Shown one piece after another: positions 2,640 through 10,128 of a stretch of DNA of 11,634 nt. The position numbers were made by a program, and so were the translations under genes. The DNA is from Tannerella sp. GTDB taxonomy: Bacteria; Bacteroidota; Bacteroidia; Bacteroidales; Tannerellaceae. Below the pieces are notes generated by a model that made no database searches, was not told where the DNA came from, and was given only the letters and a program-made list of their open reading frames with translations. The number at the start of each line of letters is the position of its first letter. The stretch's first letter is position 1. The stretch lies in assembly GCA_031263835.1 (NCBI GenBank), contig JAISEZ010000050.1:1-11634 (forward strand). Reading direction: 5' to 3'.

Positions 2640-2833
2640 TAGTAGATAGTAGTTAGTAGTTAGTAGTTAGTAGATATGGATACATTTACAGTTCATATAC
2701 AAAATCAAACGGCTCCGACAGGTGCAGCGCCTGTTACCGTATCCCGGTATGGAGACATGCGGTTTTCCCGCCGACATACGGGCGAAAGCATTTCGCCCCT
2801 ACTAACTACTAACTACTATCTACTAACTACTAA
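2640..2833 (+). repeat. Heptad-armed intergenic repeat, copy A
   Basis: Five TAGTAGW heptads (2640-2674) and five complementary CTACTAW heptads (2799-2833) bracket a 124-bp core. The arms form a long inverted repeat. The core ends with a perfect 8-bp stem, GGGCGAAA (2780-2787) and TTTCGCCC (2791-2798), with loop GCA. The core is homologous, in reverse orientation, to copies at 5241-5685 and 8052-8265. Shared words include ATGGATACAT, CGTATCCCG and TATGGAGA. The core holds a small open frame starting ATG 2676 (see findings). Together with A/T-rich DNA to 2882 it fills the whole gap between glgP and the DUF1080 gene, and it could fold as an RNA hairpin after glgP. Confidence 0.9.
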
Positions 2834-2882
2834 CTCATTGATTCGCATGATTTATTAATTTATAATTATAATGTTATTACCT

Positions 2883-3777: not shown

Positions 3778-5205
3778 TTATTGTATTCCGAAGCTGCTTA
3801 TCCAGCCGTACAGCGAGCTGACGATGCCGAACGCCAGTACTCCGGCGAGGCAGAGCACAAGACTCAGGCGCGTATAGCCGTCGCTCCGGAAGGGCGCAAC
3901 CGGCTGTTCGGCGGGCCGGATGTACATCGCCTTGACCACCAGCAGATAGTAGTACAGCGAAATCACTGTGTTTATCACCGCTATGAACACCAGCGCCTTG
4001 AACCCGGCCTGAAATGCCGCCATGAAGATGAAGAACTTGCTGAAAAAACCGGCAAACGGCGGTATCCCCGCCAGCGAAAACAGCGCCAGTGTCATCAGGA
4101 GCGCCAGACGCGGGTTGGTCCGGTAGAGACCGTTGTAGTCCGTCAGGTTTACTTTCCCGTCCGTCTGCTGTTCGACGATGGAGAGGATGCCGAAAATCAC
4201 AAGATTGGCCGCCAGATAGACCAGCGCGTAAAAGACGAGCGGCGTCAGCCCGTCGGCGTGGCCGCCTATCACGCCCAGCATCAGGTAGCCCGCCTGCGAG
4301 ATGCTGCTGAAGGCGAAGAAGCGCTTGAGGTTCTGCTGGCGGATGGCAAACAGGTTGGCGACGGTGATGGTGGCGATGATAATCCAGTAGAGCAGGTCCT
4401 GCCAGAGGGGTATCATCTGCGCAAAGACCTTGAGGAATATCACCGTCAGCGCGAACACGGCCGCCGTCTTGGAGATGACCGACAGGTAGGCCGTCACCTG
4501 CGTCGGCGCGCCTTCGTACACGTCGGCGGTCCAGAGGTGGAACGGCACGAGCGAAATCTTGAATCCCAGTCCGGCGAAGAAGAAGACGAGCGCCAGGATT
4601 TGCAGCGGCGAGCCTGTCAGGGCGGCCGTCACGTCGTCGAAGTAGAGCGTGCCCGTCGTGCCGTAGATAAAGGAGATGCCGTAGAGCATCAGGCCGGACG
4701 AAAACATGGCCGAAAGGATGTATTTGGCGCCGGCTTCGGCCGAGTGGCGCCTGTACTTGTCGAACGCCACCAGACAGGCCATCGGGATGGAGGCCAGTTC
4801 AAGTCCCAGCACAAACGTCAGGAAATGACCGGCGCTAATCATGAAAAACATCCCCAGCAGCGTGGAGAGCAGCAGGACATAGAACTCGCCGCGCTTGTGT
4901 TCCGTATCCTCGCGCCGCAGCCACGGCGCAGCCTGCATAACGACCAGCAGCGTGCCGGCGGAGAGGATGGTCTTGACCACGCTCATCAGCGGAACGTAAC
5001 GGTACATCCCGCCGAAAAGGCTCAGTGGCGCCGGCTGCGGAATCAGGTTGACCGCCAGATGTACCGCCAGCAGGATGCACGCCAGCGGGTGAAACCAGCT
5101 GCGCGCCCGTCGCCCGGTGGCGTACAGGTCGTACAGGAACAGCGCCAGCATCACGCCCATCAGCGACAGCTCCGGACGCATGGATAAAAATTGACTGTAA
5201 TCCAT
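3778..5205 (-). CDS. nuoN: NADH-quinone oxidoreductase (complex I) subunit N
   Basis: NuoN is one of three antiporter-like membrane subunits through which complex I pumps protons. The 475-residue protein is a polytopic membrane protein of normal length. Charged residues needed for transfer are present: E136 in LGLELASIP (TM5), K216 in FKISLVPFH (TM7), K246 in SVISKTAAV (TM8) and K390 in [11 protein letters not shown] (TM12). The string [20 protein letters not shown] (221-240) is the NuoN family signature. ATG 5203-5205 begins [12 protein letters not shown], a typical NuoN start; no strong ribosome binding site precedes it. It is last in the TPR-nuoL-nuoM-nuoN order but lies 1351 bp from nuoM, a gap full of repeats. 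It may therefore depend on read-through or on an unseen promoter. It ends in TAA directly against the inverted repeat at 3664-3777. Confidence 0.95.
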
Positions 5206-5240
5206 ATCTTATTCTTTTGTTTATAGGTTATTATTTATAT

Positions 5241-5685
5241 GAATCGGTAGTTAGTAGTTAGTAGATAGTAGTTAGTAGGGGGCAGCCGGCGGGAAAGCCG
5301 CATATCTCCATACCGGAATACGGCAACACGCGCTGCATCTGCCGGGGCCATCTGATTTGGTATATGAACTGATGTATCCATTCTACTATACTGCACGCGA
5401 GATGGTTTTGTGCATAGAAATAGAAAAGAATAAATATCACCACGGAGACACAGAGAACACAGAGAAGTGCACTGCGGAACGCAGTGTTTTCTCCGTGCTC
5501 TCCGTGCAGGGAAAGAGGTTACCCGGAGGCCACAGAGAAGGAACTTCGTTCCGCTGAGACACGAATCTCCGTGTCCTCTGTGCCTCCGTGTTGATAATTT
5601 ATTTTTTATGTTCATGCACAAAACCATGCCGTGTAAAGTATAACTACTATCTACTAATTACTATCTACTATCTACCGATTCGCAT
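5241..5685 (-). repeat. Heptad-armed intergenic repeat, copy B (interrupted by a MITE)
   Basis: The left arm has TAGTAGW heptads (5248-5278) preceded by GAATCGG. The core (5279-5382) matches copies A and C but lacks the GGGCGAAA hairpin. After one CTACTA unit the sequence is broken by a 254-bp insertion. The right arm resumes at 5644-5678 and ends CTACCGATTC, the mirror of the left outer end GAATCGGTAG. The two outer ends thus mark the boundaries of the original element, about 190 bp before insertion. The core runs in the same direction as copy C and opposite to copy A. Confidence 0.88.
5387..5642. mobile_element. MITE-like CACGGAG element D with 29-bp terminal inverted repeats
   Basis: The ends 5387-5415 and 5614-5642 are inverted repeats matching at 24 of 29 bases. 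They begin TATACT and end in a perfect 14-base block, ATGGTTTTGTGCAT. Inside is a second, imperfect inverted pair of CACGGAG/CACAGAG words (5440-5466) and CTCCGTG/CTCTGTG words (5567-5592). There are also two perfect hairpins: CACTGCG-GAA-CGCAGTG (5470-5486) and GGAAC-TTC-GTTCC (5540-5552). No transposase can be encoded in 256 bp, so it would be non-autonomous. Removing it with one copy of the flanking TA restores the interrupted heptad arm of repeat B. The TA duplication suggests mobilisation by an IS630/Tc1-mariner type enzyme; that is inference. Confidence 0.8.
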
Positions 5686-5740
5686 ATACTGTTTATCAGC
5701 AGTTAACTGTTATTCCGAAAGTCCTTTGGAGATTCCCGGA

Positions 5741-6223
5741 AGCCATAGAGAAATCGCCGGTTTTCTCCGGAAAAACCGTCAAAAAACCCGGAGAAATTGC
5801 CAATTTCCCCCGGAAAATGGCCAATTTCCGCCAGGGAATCGCCGATTTCCGCCAGGGAATGGCTGATTTCCGCCAGGGAATCGCCGGTTTCCGCCAGGGA
5901 ATGGCCGATTTCCGCCAGGGAATGGCCGGTTTCCGCCAGGGAATCGCCGGTTTCCGCCAGGGAATCGCCGGTTTCCGCCAGGGAATGGCCGGTTTCCGCC
6001 AGGGAATGGCTGATTTCCGCCAGGAAATGGCCGGTTTCCGCCAGGAAATTACCGATTCCCGTTGGGGAATTACCGATTCCCGTTGGGGAATTACCGATTC
6101 CCGTTGGGGAATTGCCGATTCCCGTTGGGGAATGACCGATTCCCCATGGGGAATTGCCGATTCCCGTTGGGGAATGACTGATTCCCCATGGGGAATTGCC
6201 GGTTTCCCATGGGAAATTTGCCC
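5741..6223. repeat. 21-bp-period minisatellite of small palindromes
   Basis: Nineteen clear units of exactly 21 bp run in register from 5825 to 6223, with decayed units to the left at 5804, 5783, 5762 and perhaps 5741. The first eleven (5825-6055) are mostly TTTCCGCCAGGGAAT plus six variable bases. The next eight (6056-6223) read ATTCCCGTTGGGGAAT or ATTCCCCATGGGGAAT plus five or six bases. Each unit is an inverted repeat with a 0-4 base loop. Perfect palindromes occur at 6139-6154, 6181-6196 and 6203-6216 (TTTCCCATGGGAAA). Because 21 is a multiple of three and the unit has few stops, long open frames occur on both strands, but none looks like a gene. It lies inside the nuoM-nuoN gap. Confidence 0.92.
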
Positions 6224-6254
6224 TGTACGAACCTGTTTTTATCCTTATTTCCAT

Positions 6255-6520
6255 GCAAATAACCATAAAAAATAAATTATCAACACGGAGACACGGAGAC
6301 ACGGAGAATAATGTGAGAATGAGCCAATTTGCCAATATGCCAATTCATTTTCACATTGGCTCATTGACTTATTCTCACATTTTCTTCGTGCAGAGAAAGC
6401 GTTTGCCCGGAGGCCACAGAGTAGGAACTTCGTTCCGCAGAACAGCGAATCTCCGTGTCCTCCGTGCCTCCGTGTTGATAATATATATTCCATATTACAA
6501 AACCATACCGCGTCAAACTG
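6255..6520. repeat. CACGGAG element E, second and diverged copy
   Basis: This copy shares with element D the string CATAAAAAATAAATTATCAA before its left CACGGAG words (6283-6306), CCCGGAGGCCACAGAG (6408-6423) and the GGAAC-TTC-GTTCC hairpin (6424-6436). It also shares the closing words CTCCGTGTCCTCCGTG with CCTCCGTGTTGATAAT, and ACAAAACCAT near its right end. Where D has the CACTGCG hairpin, E has an unrelated 72-bp palindrome (6310-6381). Its left terminal repeat is not clear, so the left boundary is approximate. Confidence 0.8.
6310..6381. repeat. GAGCAAATG-type palindrome inside element E
   Basis: AATGTGAGAAT (6310-6320) followed by GAGCCAAT (6321-6328) pairs with ATTGGCTC (6355-6362) and ATTCTCACATT (6371-6381), leaving an 8-base bulge on the right side. 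The words match the array between the DUF1080 gene and nuoN (3664-3777), so it is probably a member of that family placed within element E. Confidence 0.75.
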
Positions 6521-6567
6521 TCCATCTACTAACTACTAACTACTAACTACTATCTACTAACTACTGA
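6519..6567. repeat. Lone heptad arm overlapping the nuoM 3' end
   Basis: Six CTACTAW heptads (6526-6567) follow TGTCCAT, which resembles the core end TATCCATT of the heptad-armed family. This is probably the remnant of another copy whose core was lost or replaced by element E. The stop codon and last two serine codons of nuoM lie inside the array. Confidence 0.8.
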
Positions 6568-8035
6568 CCACCAGCATCACACTTTCGTTCACCATGCGGC
6601 TGATGCCGAACGGCGCCAGTCCCATCCCGGCAATGGCCACGATGAGGCAAATCAGCGTCAGGCGTTCGTCCCACGTGGCATCCGTCAGTTTCAGGTGTGC
6701 GGGATTTTCCGCTTCGCCGTACAGGATTTTCCCCACCAGCCGCAGGATATAGACGGCCGTAATCACGATGGACGTCGTGGCGAGGATGGTCAGCGTGCGG
6801 TGGAACGTGTCGTTCACCTCGAACGCGCCGACGAAAACCGTCATCTCGGCCACGAAGCCGCTCAGCCCCGGCAGTCCGAGGTTCGCCAGCCCCGCAATCA
6901 CGTAGCCGACCGAAAGGAAGGGCATGATTTTCATCAGCCCGCTCATTTCGCGGATGTCGCGCGTATGCGTCCGGCCGTAAATCATCCCTATCAGCGCGAA
7001 GAAAAGCGCCGTCATCAGGCCGTGCGAGAGCATCTGCAGCACCGCGCCCGTGACGGCCGTCCGCGTCATCATCAGGATGGCAAACAGCACCAGACTGCAG
7101 TGCGACACCGACGAGTAGGCGTTGATGTACTTCAAATCCTTCTGCACGCAGGCCGCAAAAGCGCCGTACACCACGCCGGCAGTCGTCAGCAGCAGGAAAA
7201 TCCAGGCCTGTTCGTGCGCCGCTTCGGGCATCAGGCAGAGGGCCACGCGGAAACAGCCGTAGCCGCCCAGCTTCATCAGCACGCCGGCGTGGAGCATGGA
7301 GACGGCCGTCGGCGCCGACGCATGACCGTCGGGACTCCAGGTGTGGAACGGAAACAGCGCGCCCAGCACGCCGAAGCCGATGAACGTCAGCGGGAAAAAG
7401 ATGCGCTGCACCTCGACGGGCAGGTGTGCCTGCGCCAGTTCGGTCAGGTGCATCGTCGTCGCCCCCGCACCGAAATAGACTCCCAGGATGCCCATCAGTA
7501 TCAGCGTCGAACCGCCCATCAGCATCAGCGTCAGCTTCATCGCGGAATATTCCTTCCGCCCGCTGCCCCAGACGCCTATCAGCAGGTACATCGGAATCAG
7601 CGCCACCTCGTAGAAGAGGAACATGGTGAACAGGTCGAGCGAGATAAAGAAGCCGAACACGCCTTCGCTCAGCAGGCAGAACCACAGGAAAAACTCCTTG
7701 GTCAGCGGCTGCATGTGCCACGAGGCAAACGTGCCCGTGAAGACAATGACGGACGACAGCAGCAGCATGACGACCGAAATCCCGTCCACGCCGACGGCAT
7801 AATGGATATGCAGCGGAGCATACCATACCTGACTGGCGGTGAAGAGCATTTCCGACGTATCGCCCCCGGCGCGCCGGTGGAGGTAGAGGAACGCCAGCGT
7901 GACGGCCAGCGCCAGCAGCGCACCCGCGCCCGTGACCATCACCGCGCGGATTTGCTTCATCCCCCGCGCCGCCCACAGCCCCAGCATCATCAGCAGGGGA
8001 ATCAGTACAAACAAAGACAGAAAATTTATATTCAT
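6557..8035 (-). CDS. nuoM: NADH-quinone oxidoreductase (complex I) subunit M
   Basis: NuoM is the middle antiporter-like proton channel of the complex I membrane arm. The 492-residue protein has about fourteen hydrophobic segments. Family landmarks are FYEVALIPMYLLIGVWG with E143 (TM5), FPFHTWSPDGHASAPT (228-243), HAGVLMKLGGYG with K255 (TM8), and GLPGLSGFVAEM with E397 (TM12). The residue seven places before the conserved His of TM7 is Leu (L224). In NuoL and NuoN here, and in E. coli NuoM, that place holds a lysine essential for pumping (see findings). ATG 8033-8035 gives MNINFLSLFVLIP. The last two serines and the TAG stop are made by the heptad repeat at 6526-6567. It follows nuoL by 212 bp and precedes nuoN by 1351 bp. 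Confidence 0.95.
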   Translation of the reverse strand: MNINFLSLFVLIPLLMMLGLWAARGMKQIRAVMVTGAGALLALAVTLAFLYLHRRAGGDTSEMLFTASQVWYAPLHIHYAVGVDGISVVMLLLSSVIVFTGTFASWHMQPLTKEFFLWFCLLSEGVFGFFISLDLFTMFLFYEVALIPMYLLIGVWGSGRKEYSAMKLTLMLMGGSTLILMGILGVYFGAGATTMHLTELAQAHLPVEVQRIFFPLTFIGFGVLGALFPFHTWSPDGHASAPTAVSMLHAGVLMKLGGYGCFRVALCLMPEAAHEQAWIFLLLTTAGVVYGAFAACVQKDLKYINAYSSVSHCSLVLFAILMMTRTAVTGAVLQMLSHGLMTALFFALIGMIYGRTHTRDIREMSGLMKIMPFLSVGYVIAGLANLGLPGLSGFVAEMTVFVGAFEVNDTFHRTLTILATTSIVITAVYILRLVGKILYGEAENPAHLKLTDATWDERLTLICLIVAIAGMGLAPFGISRMVNESVMLVVSS

Positions 8036-8051
8036 ATCACGTGTATTTATT

Positions 8052-8265
8052 TAGTAGTTAGTAGATAGTAGTTAGTAGTCAGTAGGGGCGAAATGCTTTC
8101 GCCCGTAAGGCAGCCGGCGGAAAAGCCGCATATCTCCATATCGGGATACGGCAACAGGTACTGCCTTTGCCGGAGCCATATTCTGTATATAAACTAATGT
8201 ATCCATTCTACTAACTACTAACTACTAACTACTATCTACTAAAACTACTATCTACTAACTACTCC
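8052..8265 (-). repeat. Heptad-armed intergenic repeat, copy C
   Basis: The left arm is TAGTAGW heptads (8052-8086). The right arm is eight CTACTAW heptads (8208-8265) with a 2-base slip at 8243-8244. The core carries the perfect hairpin GGGCGAAA-TGC-TTTCGCCC (8086-8104), a second stem CGGC-GGAAAA-GCCG, and the shared words CATATCTCCATA, GGGATACGG and GTATCCATT. It fills the gap between nuoL and nuoM. The right arm overlaps the last codons of nuoL, whose TAG stop at 8248-8250 lies inside it. Confidence 0.9.
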
Positions 8266-10128
8266 AAGCAAAATCACCGTCAAAATCAGCGCTCCGCCCA
8301 GGAACACCATCGCATACTGCTGCACGTTCCCGCTTTGCAGTCCCCGGATACGGACGCTGGCCGCGTTCGTCACGTACGCCAGTCCGTTCATGAAGCCGTC
8401 GACCACGTGGCGGTCAAACCAGGCCAGCGGCGTGGAGATGCAGGCAAAGATAATCCGGTGGGTGACGAACTGATACACCTCGTCGATATAGAAGCGCCGG
8501 TACGCCGCGCGGTACAGGCCCCGGAGGTGCGTAACCGTCCGTCCGGACGCCTTCCCGTATATCGCCGCGGCAAGTCCGATAGCCACTGCCGCCGCGCAGA
8601 CGCTGACAGCCGCTACGGCGGCGTTCAGGTGAATCGCATACGCTTCGCCGCTGCTGCTGACAAACCGGCCGAAGGGTATCCATCCCGCCACGCACGTCAG
8701 GGCGGCCAGTATGATTAAAGGCACGGTCATGGTGCGCGGCGCTTCGTGCGGCGCAGGATGACCGGCGTCATACGTTCCGTTCCAGAAAATCCGGAAATAG
8801 AGGCGGAACATGTAGAACGCCGTCAGCATGGCAATGCCGCTCATCAGCACGCCCATCGCGGGGCTGAACCGGAAACAGGCCGCCAGTATTTCATCCTTCG
8901 AGAAGAAACCGCTGAAGGGCGGAATCCCCGCTATCGCCAGACAGGCAATCAGGAACGTCACATGCGTCACGGGCAGGAATTTCCGCAGCCCGCCCATGTC
9001 CTTCATTTCGTTGGAGTGGACGGCATGGATGACGGCGCCGGCGCAGAGGAAGAGCAGCGCCTTGAAGAAGGCGTGCGTGAAAAGGTGGAACAGGGAAGCC
9101 ATGTACCCCAGTCCACCCCCGTGCGGGTCGGCGGAGGTGCACACGCCCAGCGCCACAATCATAAAGCCAATCTGCGAGATGGTGGAAAAGGCCAGCACGC
9201 GCTTGATGTCGGTCTGCGTGCAGGCGATAACGGCGGCAAACAGCGCCGTGAACGCGCCGGCATAGCCGGCGGCGTGCAGCACGTCGGGCGCGCAGCCGAT
9301 GTACAGCGGGAACATCCGCGCAACCAGATAGACGCCCGACACGACCATCGTTGCCGCGTGAATCAGCGCGCTGACGGGCGTCGGGCCTTCCATGGCGTCG
9401 GGCAGCCAGATGTGCAGCGGGAACATGGCGCTCTTGCCGGCGCCGCCGATGAACATCAGCCCCAGCGCCAGCGGTATCATCGACCCGGCGGCCGCCAGCG
9501 CCTGCGTCTGCGGCGTGAAGGCGAAGGAGCCGGTATAGTATCCGTAAATCAGGATGCCGACCAGAAAGCCGAGGTCGGCAAAGCGGGTCACGACAAACGC
9601 CTTCTTTGCCGCCGCCACGGCCGTCGCACGGGGGTAGTAGAAGCCAATCAGCAGGTAGCTCGAAACGCCGACCAGTTCCCAGAAGACGTACATCTGGAAG
9701 ATATTGGTTGCGACCACCAGTCCCGTCATCGAGAGGGTGAAGAGCGACAGGAAGGCGAAATAGCGCTGGTAGCCGCCTTCGCCCTTCATGTAGCCAAGCG
9801 AATAGATGTGCACCATCAGCGAAACGGTGGAAATGACGACCAGCATCATGACCGAAATCGGGTCGAGCAGGATGCCGAAGTCGATGTGCAGCGATTCGGT
9901 GAAAGGCAGCCAGGTAACATTGAACGGCGTGAGTGTCGGGAAGGTGCCGTCCGCCGCCCGTTCGCCGCCGAAGTACCGCAGGGCCGTCATCCACGAGAGC
10001 GCCGTCACAAGTGCAAGCGAGGCCGTCCCGACGACGCCTGCCGTCCGGGGTTTCATCCGTTTTCCGCCCAGTCCGAGCCAGAGGAACGAGGCGAAGGGTA
10101 GCAGGAGTATCAAGATTGTAAAATCCAT
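8248..10128 (-). CDS. nuoL: NADH-quinone oxidoreductase (complex I) subunit L
   Basis: NuoL is the distal antiporter-like proton channel of complex I and carries the long lateral helix. The 626-residue length is normal. Key residues are present: E151 in VFWELVGVSSYLL (TM5), K232 in GGAGKSAMFPLHIWLPDAME (TM7), H352 and K356 in THAFFKALL, and K411-D412 in GIPPFSGFFSKDEI (TM12). The C-terminal RRFYIDEVYQ (544-553) and RGLQSGNVQQYAM (595-607), before a last membrane helix, show that the lateral-helix region is complete. ATG 10126-10128 gives MDFTILILLLPF. It starts 19 bp after the TPR gene, so the two are probably co-transcribed; nuoK is not upstream. The last four residues (VVSR) and the TAG stop are encoded by heptad repeat DNA. 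Confidence 0.96.
   Translation of the reverse strand: MDFTILILLLPFASFLWLGLGGKRMKPRTAGVVGTASLALVTALSWMTALRYFGGERAADGTFPTLTPFNVTWLPFTESLHIDFGILLDPISVMMLVVISTVSLMVHIYSLGYMKGEGGYQRYFAFLSLFTLSMTGLVVATNIFQMYVFWELVGVSSYLLIGFYYPRATAVAAAKKAFVVTRFADLGFLVGILIYGYYTGSFAFTPQTQALAAAGSMIPLALGLMFIGGAGKSAMFPLHIWLPDAMEGPTPVSALIHAATMVVSGVYLVARMFPLYIGCAPDVLHAAGYAGAFTALFAAVIACTQTDIKRVLAFSTISQIGFMIVALGVCTSADPHGGGLGYMASLFHLFTHAFFKALLFLCAGAVIHAVHSNEMKDMGGLRKFLPVTHVTFLIACLAIAGIPPFSGFFSKDEILAACFRFSPAMGVLMSGIAMLTAFYMFRLYFRIFWNGTYDAGHPAPHEAPRTMTVPLIILAALTCVAGWIPFGRFVSSSGEAYAIHLNAAVAAVSVCAAAVAIGLAAAIYGKASGRTVTHLRGLYRAAYRRFYIDEVYQFVTHRIIFACISTPLAWFDRHVVDGFMNGLAYVTNAASVRIRGLQSGNVQQYAMVFLGGALILTVILLGVVSR

Follow-up and report, generated by a model that had tools for sequence, protein, structure and literature searches.

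Among the described systems, the RUP element of Streptococcus pneumoniae together with IS630-Spn1 is probably the nearest parallel to the element analyzed here (element D), the comparison being one of architecture only. RUP comprises 107 bases and is present in 108 copies in one species (PMC2229807). According to that source, RUP and D have in common that they are short, gene-less, high-copy and intergenic, that they use a TA target and that their ends resemble those of an IS630-family element; both also share their regions with other mobile elements (PMC2229807). What separates them is that members of the D family measure 83-386 bases and contain many different interiors, that their end occurs genus-wide and that a putative transposase partner was detected in sister species only.

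Further comparisons come from Porphyromonas, another genus of the Bacteroidales. The BrickBuilt and MITE239/464/700 elements of Porphyromonas gingivalis have ends that match the IS5-family elements ISPg1, 3, 4 and 9 (PMC4596501). Like D, they are MITEs; their ends resemble those of resident insertion sequences, and tandem repeats are present in two of the four. However, their target duplications vary and their ends are of the IS5 family (PMC4596501), whereas D is of the IS630 type with TA. The GAGACC-type ends that Table 2 of PMC4596501 gives for BrickBuilt, an IS5-type MITE, are absent from D, whose termini read TATACT. The Correia/NEMIS elements of Neisseria, compared here by description, share with D terminal inverted repeats with a terminal TA, a target duplication and the occurrence of filled and empty sites (PMC2229807). 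Regarding the mechanism, ISY100 inserts in vitro at TA, which is duplicated, and mini-elements with 30 bases per end work equally; normal products made up 34 of 39, the others being two with AA/TT and three that were one base short on one side (PMC2170065). The parallel between D and this IS630/Tc1-mariner element lies in the duplicated TA target and in the short ends, which suffice for ISY100 (PMC2170065); D differs from it in having no gene. In all visible respects, D fits the ISY100 mechanism. Sequence strings yielded no paper, and D was undescribed among the literature matches listed, in a search outside which supplements, figures and most subscription papers lay.

The window, i.e. the whole stretch of 11,634 nucleotides that was analyzed, is contig C94 of a metagenome-assembled genome (MAG) of an uncultured, Tannerella-related bacterium; the MAG has 331 contigs, totals 2.05 Mb and is 63% complete. 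In our reading, to which we assign a probability of roughly 90%, D is a non-autonomous MITE of the IS630/Tc1-mariner type that is moved in trans by a transposase from an IS630 subgroup which this genus harbours. The parts of D are as follows.

5389..5640, no strand: element D, MITE, 252 bases, TA on either side
5387..5388, no strand: left TA, target duplication, on the basis of copy C at 8203
5641..5642, no strand: right TA, target duplication, on the basis of copy C at 8203
5387..5415, plus strand: left terminal inverted repeat, TA included; 24/29 against the right end; genus-wide pattern
5614..5642, minus strand: right terminal inverted repeat, TA included; pairs with the left end
5438..5466, plus strand: inner arm with CACGGAG-type short repeats, by eye; hairpin
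5566..5594, minus strand: inverted inner arm with CACGGAG-type short repeats, by eye; hairpin

A preliminary description of the locus had proposed a MITE-like element with inverted ends and a 2-bp TA duplication. Its ends were confirmed: 24 of the 29 positions of 5387-5415 are identical in the reverse complement of 5614-5642. Among all segments of this length (256 bases) that the whole window contains, 11,378 in number, D alone has an end match of at least 24/29 (runner-up 18). For two open reading frames overlapping D, Pfam yielded no family at E 0.01. As RNA, D is predicted to form a single end-to-end hairpin (-132.8 kcal/mol, z -14.07; 0/200 shuffles as good). The junctions and the TA read on both sides as had been claimed. 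Joining the flanks of D with one TA gives CCATTCTACTAACTACTA, and this matches copy C of the surrounding repeat at 8203 exactly. Because the right flank of D is a heptad array, the non-repetitive anchor of this match is only CCATTCTAC; the single comparison with copy C is therefore weaker than it appears, and independent copies were examined.

A BLAST search of the own MAG with D yielded 88 matches, both strands counted, many places being matched twice because D is nearly self-complementary. The closest copies, located at other places, are 96% (L002) and 94% (L003) identical; many others are partial or diverged. The 29-base end was found 100 times with at most two mismatches (50 forward, 50 reverse), while the same end read backward gave no match in all 41 genomes of the genus. 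From 80 stretches of the own MAG, some of them overlapping, 37 complete elements of 90-350 bases were paired after duplicates had been dropped, using a pattern that includes TATA and tolerates up to 7 mismatches of 29. TA is present at both outer ends of 30 of these 37, a count biased upward because the search pattern holds TATA, and is missing on one or both sides in seven. Other copies without TA flanks, one of the outcomes that the preliminary description had named as contrary to its claim, are the minority, and the proposed duplication is supported by these members in addition to copy C. TATACT...AGTATA is read by 27/37 elements, and 6/37 terminate in the 14-mer TATACTTCACGCGG without a mismatch. 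The base outside the TA, read towards the element, is T in 48 of 72 flanks, so that TTAA-like sites are common.

The 37 elements were grouped by their interiors together with 19 complete elements from loci of relatives (83-386 bases in all). They fell into 15 groups, an upper estimate because the shortest interiors can hardly be matched; the largest group contains 28 own elements and ten are singletons. The family is thus one conserved end with many differing interiors. In two D copies (L016, L018), a CTCTCCCC...GGGGAGAG palindrome lies inside the interior, at different arms. Being short, without a transposase gene, with inverted ends and TA, and having many dispersed copies, D withstood the examination as a MITE-like element.

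D lies within another repeat (repeat B), three copies of which occur in the window.

5239..5688, plus strand: repeat B interrupted by D, with heptad arms, core and GATTCGCAT end; limits by eye
8050..8270, plus strand: repeat B, copy C, which lacks D and serves as the empty-site reference; limits by eye
2640..2850, minus strand: repeat B, copy A, which is inverted and likewise lacks D; limits by eye

At two further loci, family members occupy other spots of repeat B: one lies in the right arm on the far side of an extra hairpin (L003), and a 115-base member stands within the left arm (L142). Together with the absence of D from copies A and C, this shows that B predates D, and the proposed nesting order held. 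Alternatively, D and B might be a single composite which spreads or is copied as a unit, the nest being its normal anatomy. That three loci (L001, L014, L018) carry a D-type element at an identical spot, ATTCTAC-TA, could be read in this way, but the core of repeat B at L014 and L018 is different by eye, copies A and C lack D, L003 and L142 carry the element elsewhere in B, and some members are found outside recognisable arrays (e.g. L007, L140, L146, L153). Moreover, flank sharing was determined for the 36 elements with at least 30 bases on both flanks (local score of at least 30 over 200 bases each), and no pair among them had both flanks in common. One flank was common to three pairs (L001, L003, L156), their elements lying in different copies of repeat B. 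The nest is therefore not a fixed composite found at many loci, an outcome that the preliminary description had named as contrary to its claim, and the composite was rejected as scarcely credible.

Repeat B itself is element-like, with ends GCGAATCRGTAG and CTACYGATTCGC, heptad arms and a hairpin core (2640-2850, 5239-5688 and 8050-8270; also L142, L155 and L138). In 5/8 paired copies it is bordered by AT on both sides, so that B may represent another mobile family, one that duplicates AT. Three layers were recognized by eye at L005 (1475-1757) and L012 (1474-1762), where a period-7 array, GTGATTA or AATTCAT, surrounds a B-type unit and this in turn a D-type element.

The nest belongs to a larger stack between two genes.

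3778..5205, minus strand: downstream gene, which we take to be nuoN from its protein; orthologues in relatives
6557..8035, minus strand: upstream gene, presumably nuoM, named from its protein
5206-6556: nuoM-nuoN gap, holding B, D, the minisatellite and E
5795-6207: 21-base minisatellite, 19.7 copies, 83% matches
6254..6496, plus strand: element E, related to D but old and decayed, 85% over 114 bases and 76% over 46

An orthologue of NuoN was detected in 19 relatives, 18 of which have both genes on one locus. The gap comprises 1354 bases here versus 1-141 in these 18, and D was found between nuoM and nuoN in none of the 18. Nor do the relatives possess the rest of the stack at this site, repeat B included; in the closest relative (L199, 91%) the locus is incomplete. 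As the stack is missing from all 18 comparable relatives, B, D, the minisatellite and E were gained in the own lineage. This gain bears on the idea that the family is no longer mobile and consists of relic hairpins, perhaps kept for mRNA or chromosome structure, which would be compatible with the IS630 MITE reading. The very stable hairpin, the position of D between the co-directional nuoM and nuoN, the many partial or diverged copies and a cognate transposase not found in the own MAG would suit such relics, whereas the stack, absent in 18/18 comparable relatives, and the copies 96% and 94% identical at different places make an immobile family unlikely.

Some other peculiarities of the region were noted. 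In the middle of element E there is another inverted repeat, ATGTGAGAATGAGCCAAT, by eye, and a D-type element lies inside a repeat of the ATGTGAGAATGAGCCAAT kind around position 427 of L172. At the 3' end of nuoM (6557-6571) and at the end of nuoL (8248), the last codons and the stop are supplied by the heptad array. The C-termini read LVVSS for NuoM and GVVSR for NuoL here, and VIALN (L200, L202) and FMALNS (L201) for NuoM of relatives. In some relatives, minisatellite-type repetitive reading frames lie beside D-type ends (L026, L034).

Counting the own MAG, 21/41 genomes of the genus contain the 29-base end (at most two mismatches). A draw of 295 genomes from the order, with three other members of the family and zero other congeners, yielded it in the own genome alone. 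When relatives were searched by BLAST with D, mostly the end alone was covered among the matches listed, while some matches listed for G007, G024 and G030 cover the interior. Genomes with the end hold a match to the DDE_3 profile more often (15/21) than those without it (6/20; Fisher p 0.013, uncorrected for kinship).

An IS630-type transposase with matching ends, which the preliminary description had recommended to look for, was found in congeners. The DDE_3 profile gave 46 matches in 21/41 genomes of the genus, and 30 of these loci were examined, the own one included. The exact TATACTTCACGCGG plus one base (15 positions) is present at 4/30 and absent from 26, many being partial or of another subgroup; with at most one mismatch there were five matches versus one for the reversed pattern. 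A more specific query was P0001, the transposase of a congener (G048), which is 100% identical to a Tannerella sp. record (match in L134) and scores 112.4 bits with NCBIfam transpos_IS630 (NF033545; cut-off 100). Nine of its matches in the genus reach at least residue 214 of 217. Eight of the nine loci were examined, and all eight carry the end at the transposase C-terminus, exact over 15 positions in six (L104, L105, L106, L107, L120, L128), with one mismatch in L131 and two in L110. In three transposase loci the open frame stops inside the end; the match in L107 has two stops within, and in L128 a 369-base family member adjoins a transposase remnant.

The related protein P0003 (85% identical to P0001 over 96% of P0001) has 34 residues between the second D and the E (DD34E) and reveals DDE_3 and two helix-turn-helix domains above the cut-off. 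In a Tannerellaceae record (L137), a left end precedes the start region, and the first 18 residues equal P0003 before the sequence departs; this end agrees with D at 17-18/29, no better than the control. A 352-aa match (71%) lies between two such ends 1204 bases apart (L135). Full copies at the level of the order are 53% identical in L249, which has both ends, and 52-53% in L249/L250; the ends, more distant, follow the same plan (TATACTAAAAACGGG left and TATACATCAAACGGG right in L249). Intact related genes were found among metagenome proteins and in L135 and L249/L250, while the congeneric copies with a matching end are truncated or frame-broken. A partial match of 75% (L136) had no such end.

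Ten transposon ends were compared with a reference end of the family, taken from L018, and agree with it at 19-25 of 29 positions; with the left end of D they agree at 18-22 and with the right end of D at 17-23. The end of L131, CATAGTTTTGTGC, reaches 25/29 against the family reference. By contrast, the best 29-mer in 25 other DDE_3 loci reached 18/29 against this reference. The agreement comprises mainly the outer 14 bases, of which D has 12 at each end and other members all 14, and the TTTTGTG block, exact in six of the ten tabulated transposon ends. The expectation that the ends of the transposase would match was thus borne out for these parts, not for the whole ATGGTTTTGTGCAT block. Owing to the TA duplication, the IS630 profile and the DD34E partner with a shared outer end, the assignment to IS630/Tc1-mariner was upheld.

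D might conceivably owe its movement to a different transposase family whose ends are TA-rich, its IS630 match then reflecting convergence on TATACT, as its end differs in the middle, only 12/14 outer bases are retained and no cognate IS630 gene was found in the own MAG. This is nevertheless very unlikely in view of the outer block at the C-terminus in 8/8 loci examined, six of them exact over 15 positions, the identical 14 bases that end 6/37 own elements, and the low agreement (at most 18/29) in the 25 other DDE_3 loci. In the own MAG, 63% complete, no cognate transposase gene was found, only a fragment with 37% identity on C305; multi-copy insertion sequences would be expected to assemble badly. 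This IS630 remnant on C305 was rejected as partner because no matching end with up to 9 mismatches of 29 was present in L048.

That D belongs to an IS630-type MITE group like RUP is well supported. Since no cognate was found in the own MAG, the congeneric genes with the end are truncated or frame-broken, the middles of the ends have diverged and L136 showed no such end, the mobilization step is one that we infer. A DD34E transposase of the IS630 subgroup resident in the genus would recognize the outer TATACTTCRCGCGG block and probably also the inner TTTTGTG block. The enzyme, acting in trans by cut and paste, would excise D and insert it at a TA, which would be duplicated. D itself inserted into a repeat B already located between nuoM and nuoN, in its right heptad arm. 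Because the ends diverge in the middle, it may be an unsampled sister of the detected transposases that acts as the true partner.

The target of D raises the question of a preference for short-period arrays. TA sites were sampled from 20 contigs chosen mostly by round contig number (122,478 bases, 5809 N excluded), the non-coding part, i.e. that outside open reading frames of at least 100 aa, amounting to 8341 of 116,669 bases. A short-period array was found at a distance of at most 15 bases for 14/37 elements and for 70/461 of the TA sites in non-coding sequence (odds ratio 3.4, p 0.002). Compared with all TA sites, coding ones included, the values were 11/37 versus 71/3836 (Fisher p 1e-10), the non-coding comparison being the fairer one. 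These data suggest that the elements prefer arrays as targets, but the same picture would arise if repeats tolerated insertions. In the own-MAG sample (L228-L247), period 7 accounts for 610 of 1119 array bases, while shuffled sequence contained 21 array bases, all of period 6. Heptamer arrays, in that case of TAACTGA, reportedly also occur in Beggiatoaceae. A member located mid-way between inverted heptad arms was seen in L004, and some others are placed likewise. As a general rule, targeting of palindrome centres was rejected, because flank symmetry over 36 elements equalled that of permuted pairing (115/360 matches at arm 10 versus a permuted mean of 116.8). Tentatively, and somewhat against the odds, an interchangeable end "shell" of one IS630 lineage might repeatedly wrap unrelated interiors, other repeat families such as the CACGGAG arrays among them, throughout the genus. 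It might also favour period-7 arrays over the remaining intergenic TA sites, resulting in layered repeat islands inside operons, with three levels in L005 and L012.

It is well supported that D represents a new MITE group of an ordinary kind; its nest is unusually clear, and the type of its partner has been identified. General knowledge of MITEs is unchanged by D. For the genus, a bacterial MITE group gains a plausible transposase partner across its MAGs. Within one operon gap the layers can be ordered, first B and then D, and the growth of intergenic repeat stacks is illustrated by 1354 bases where 18 relatives have 1-141.
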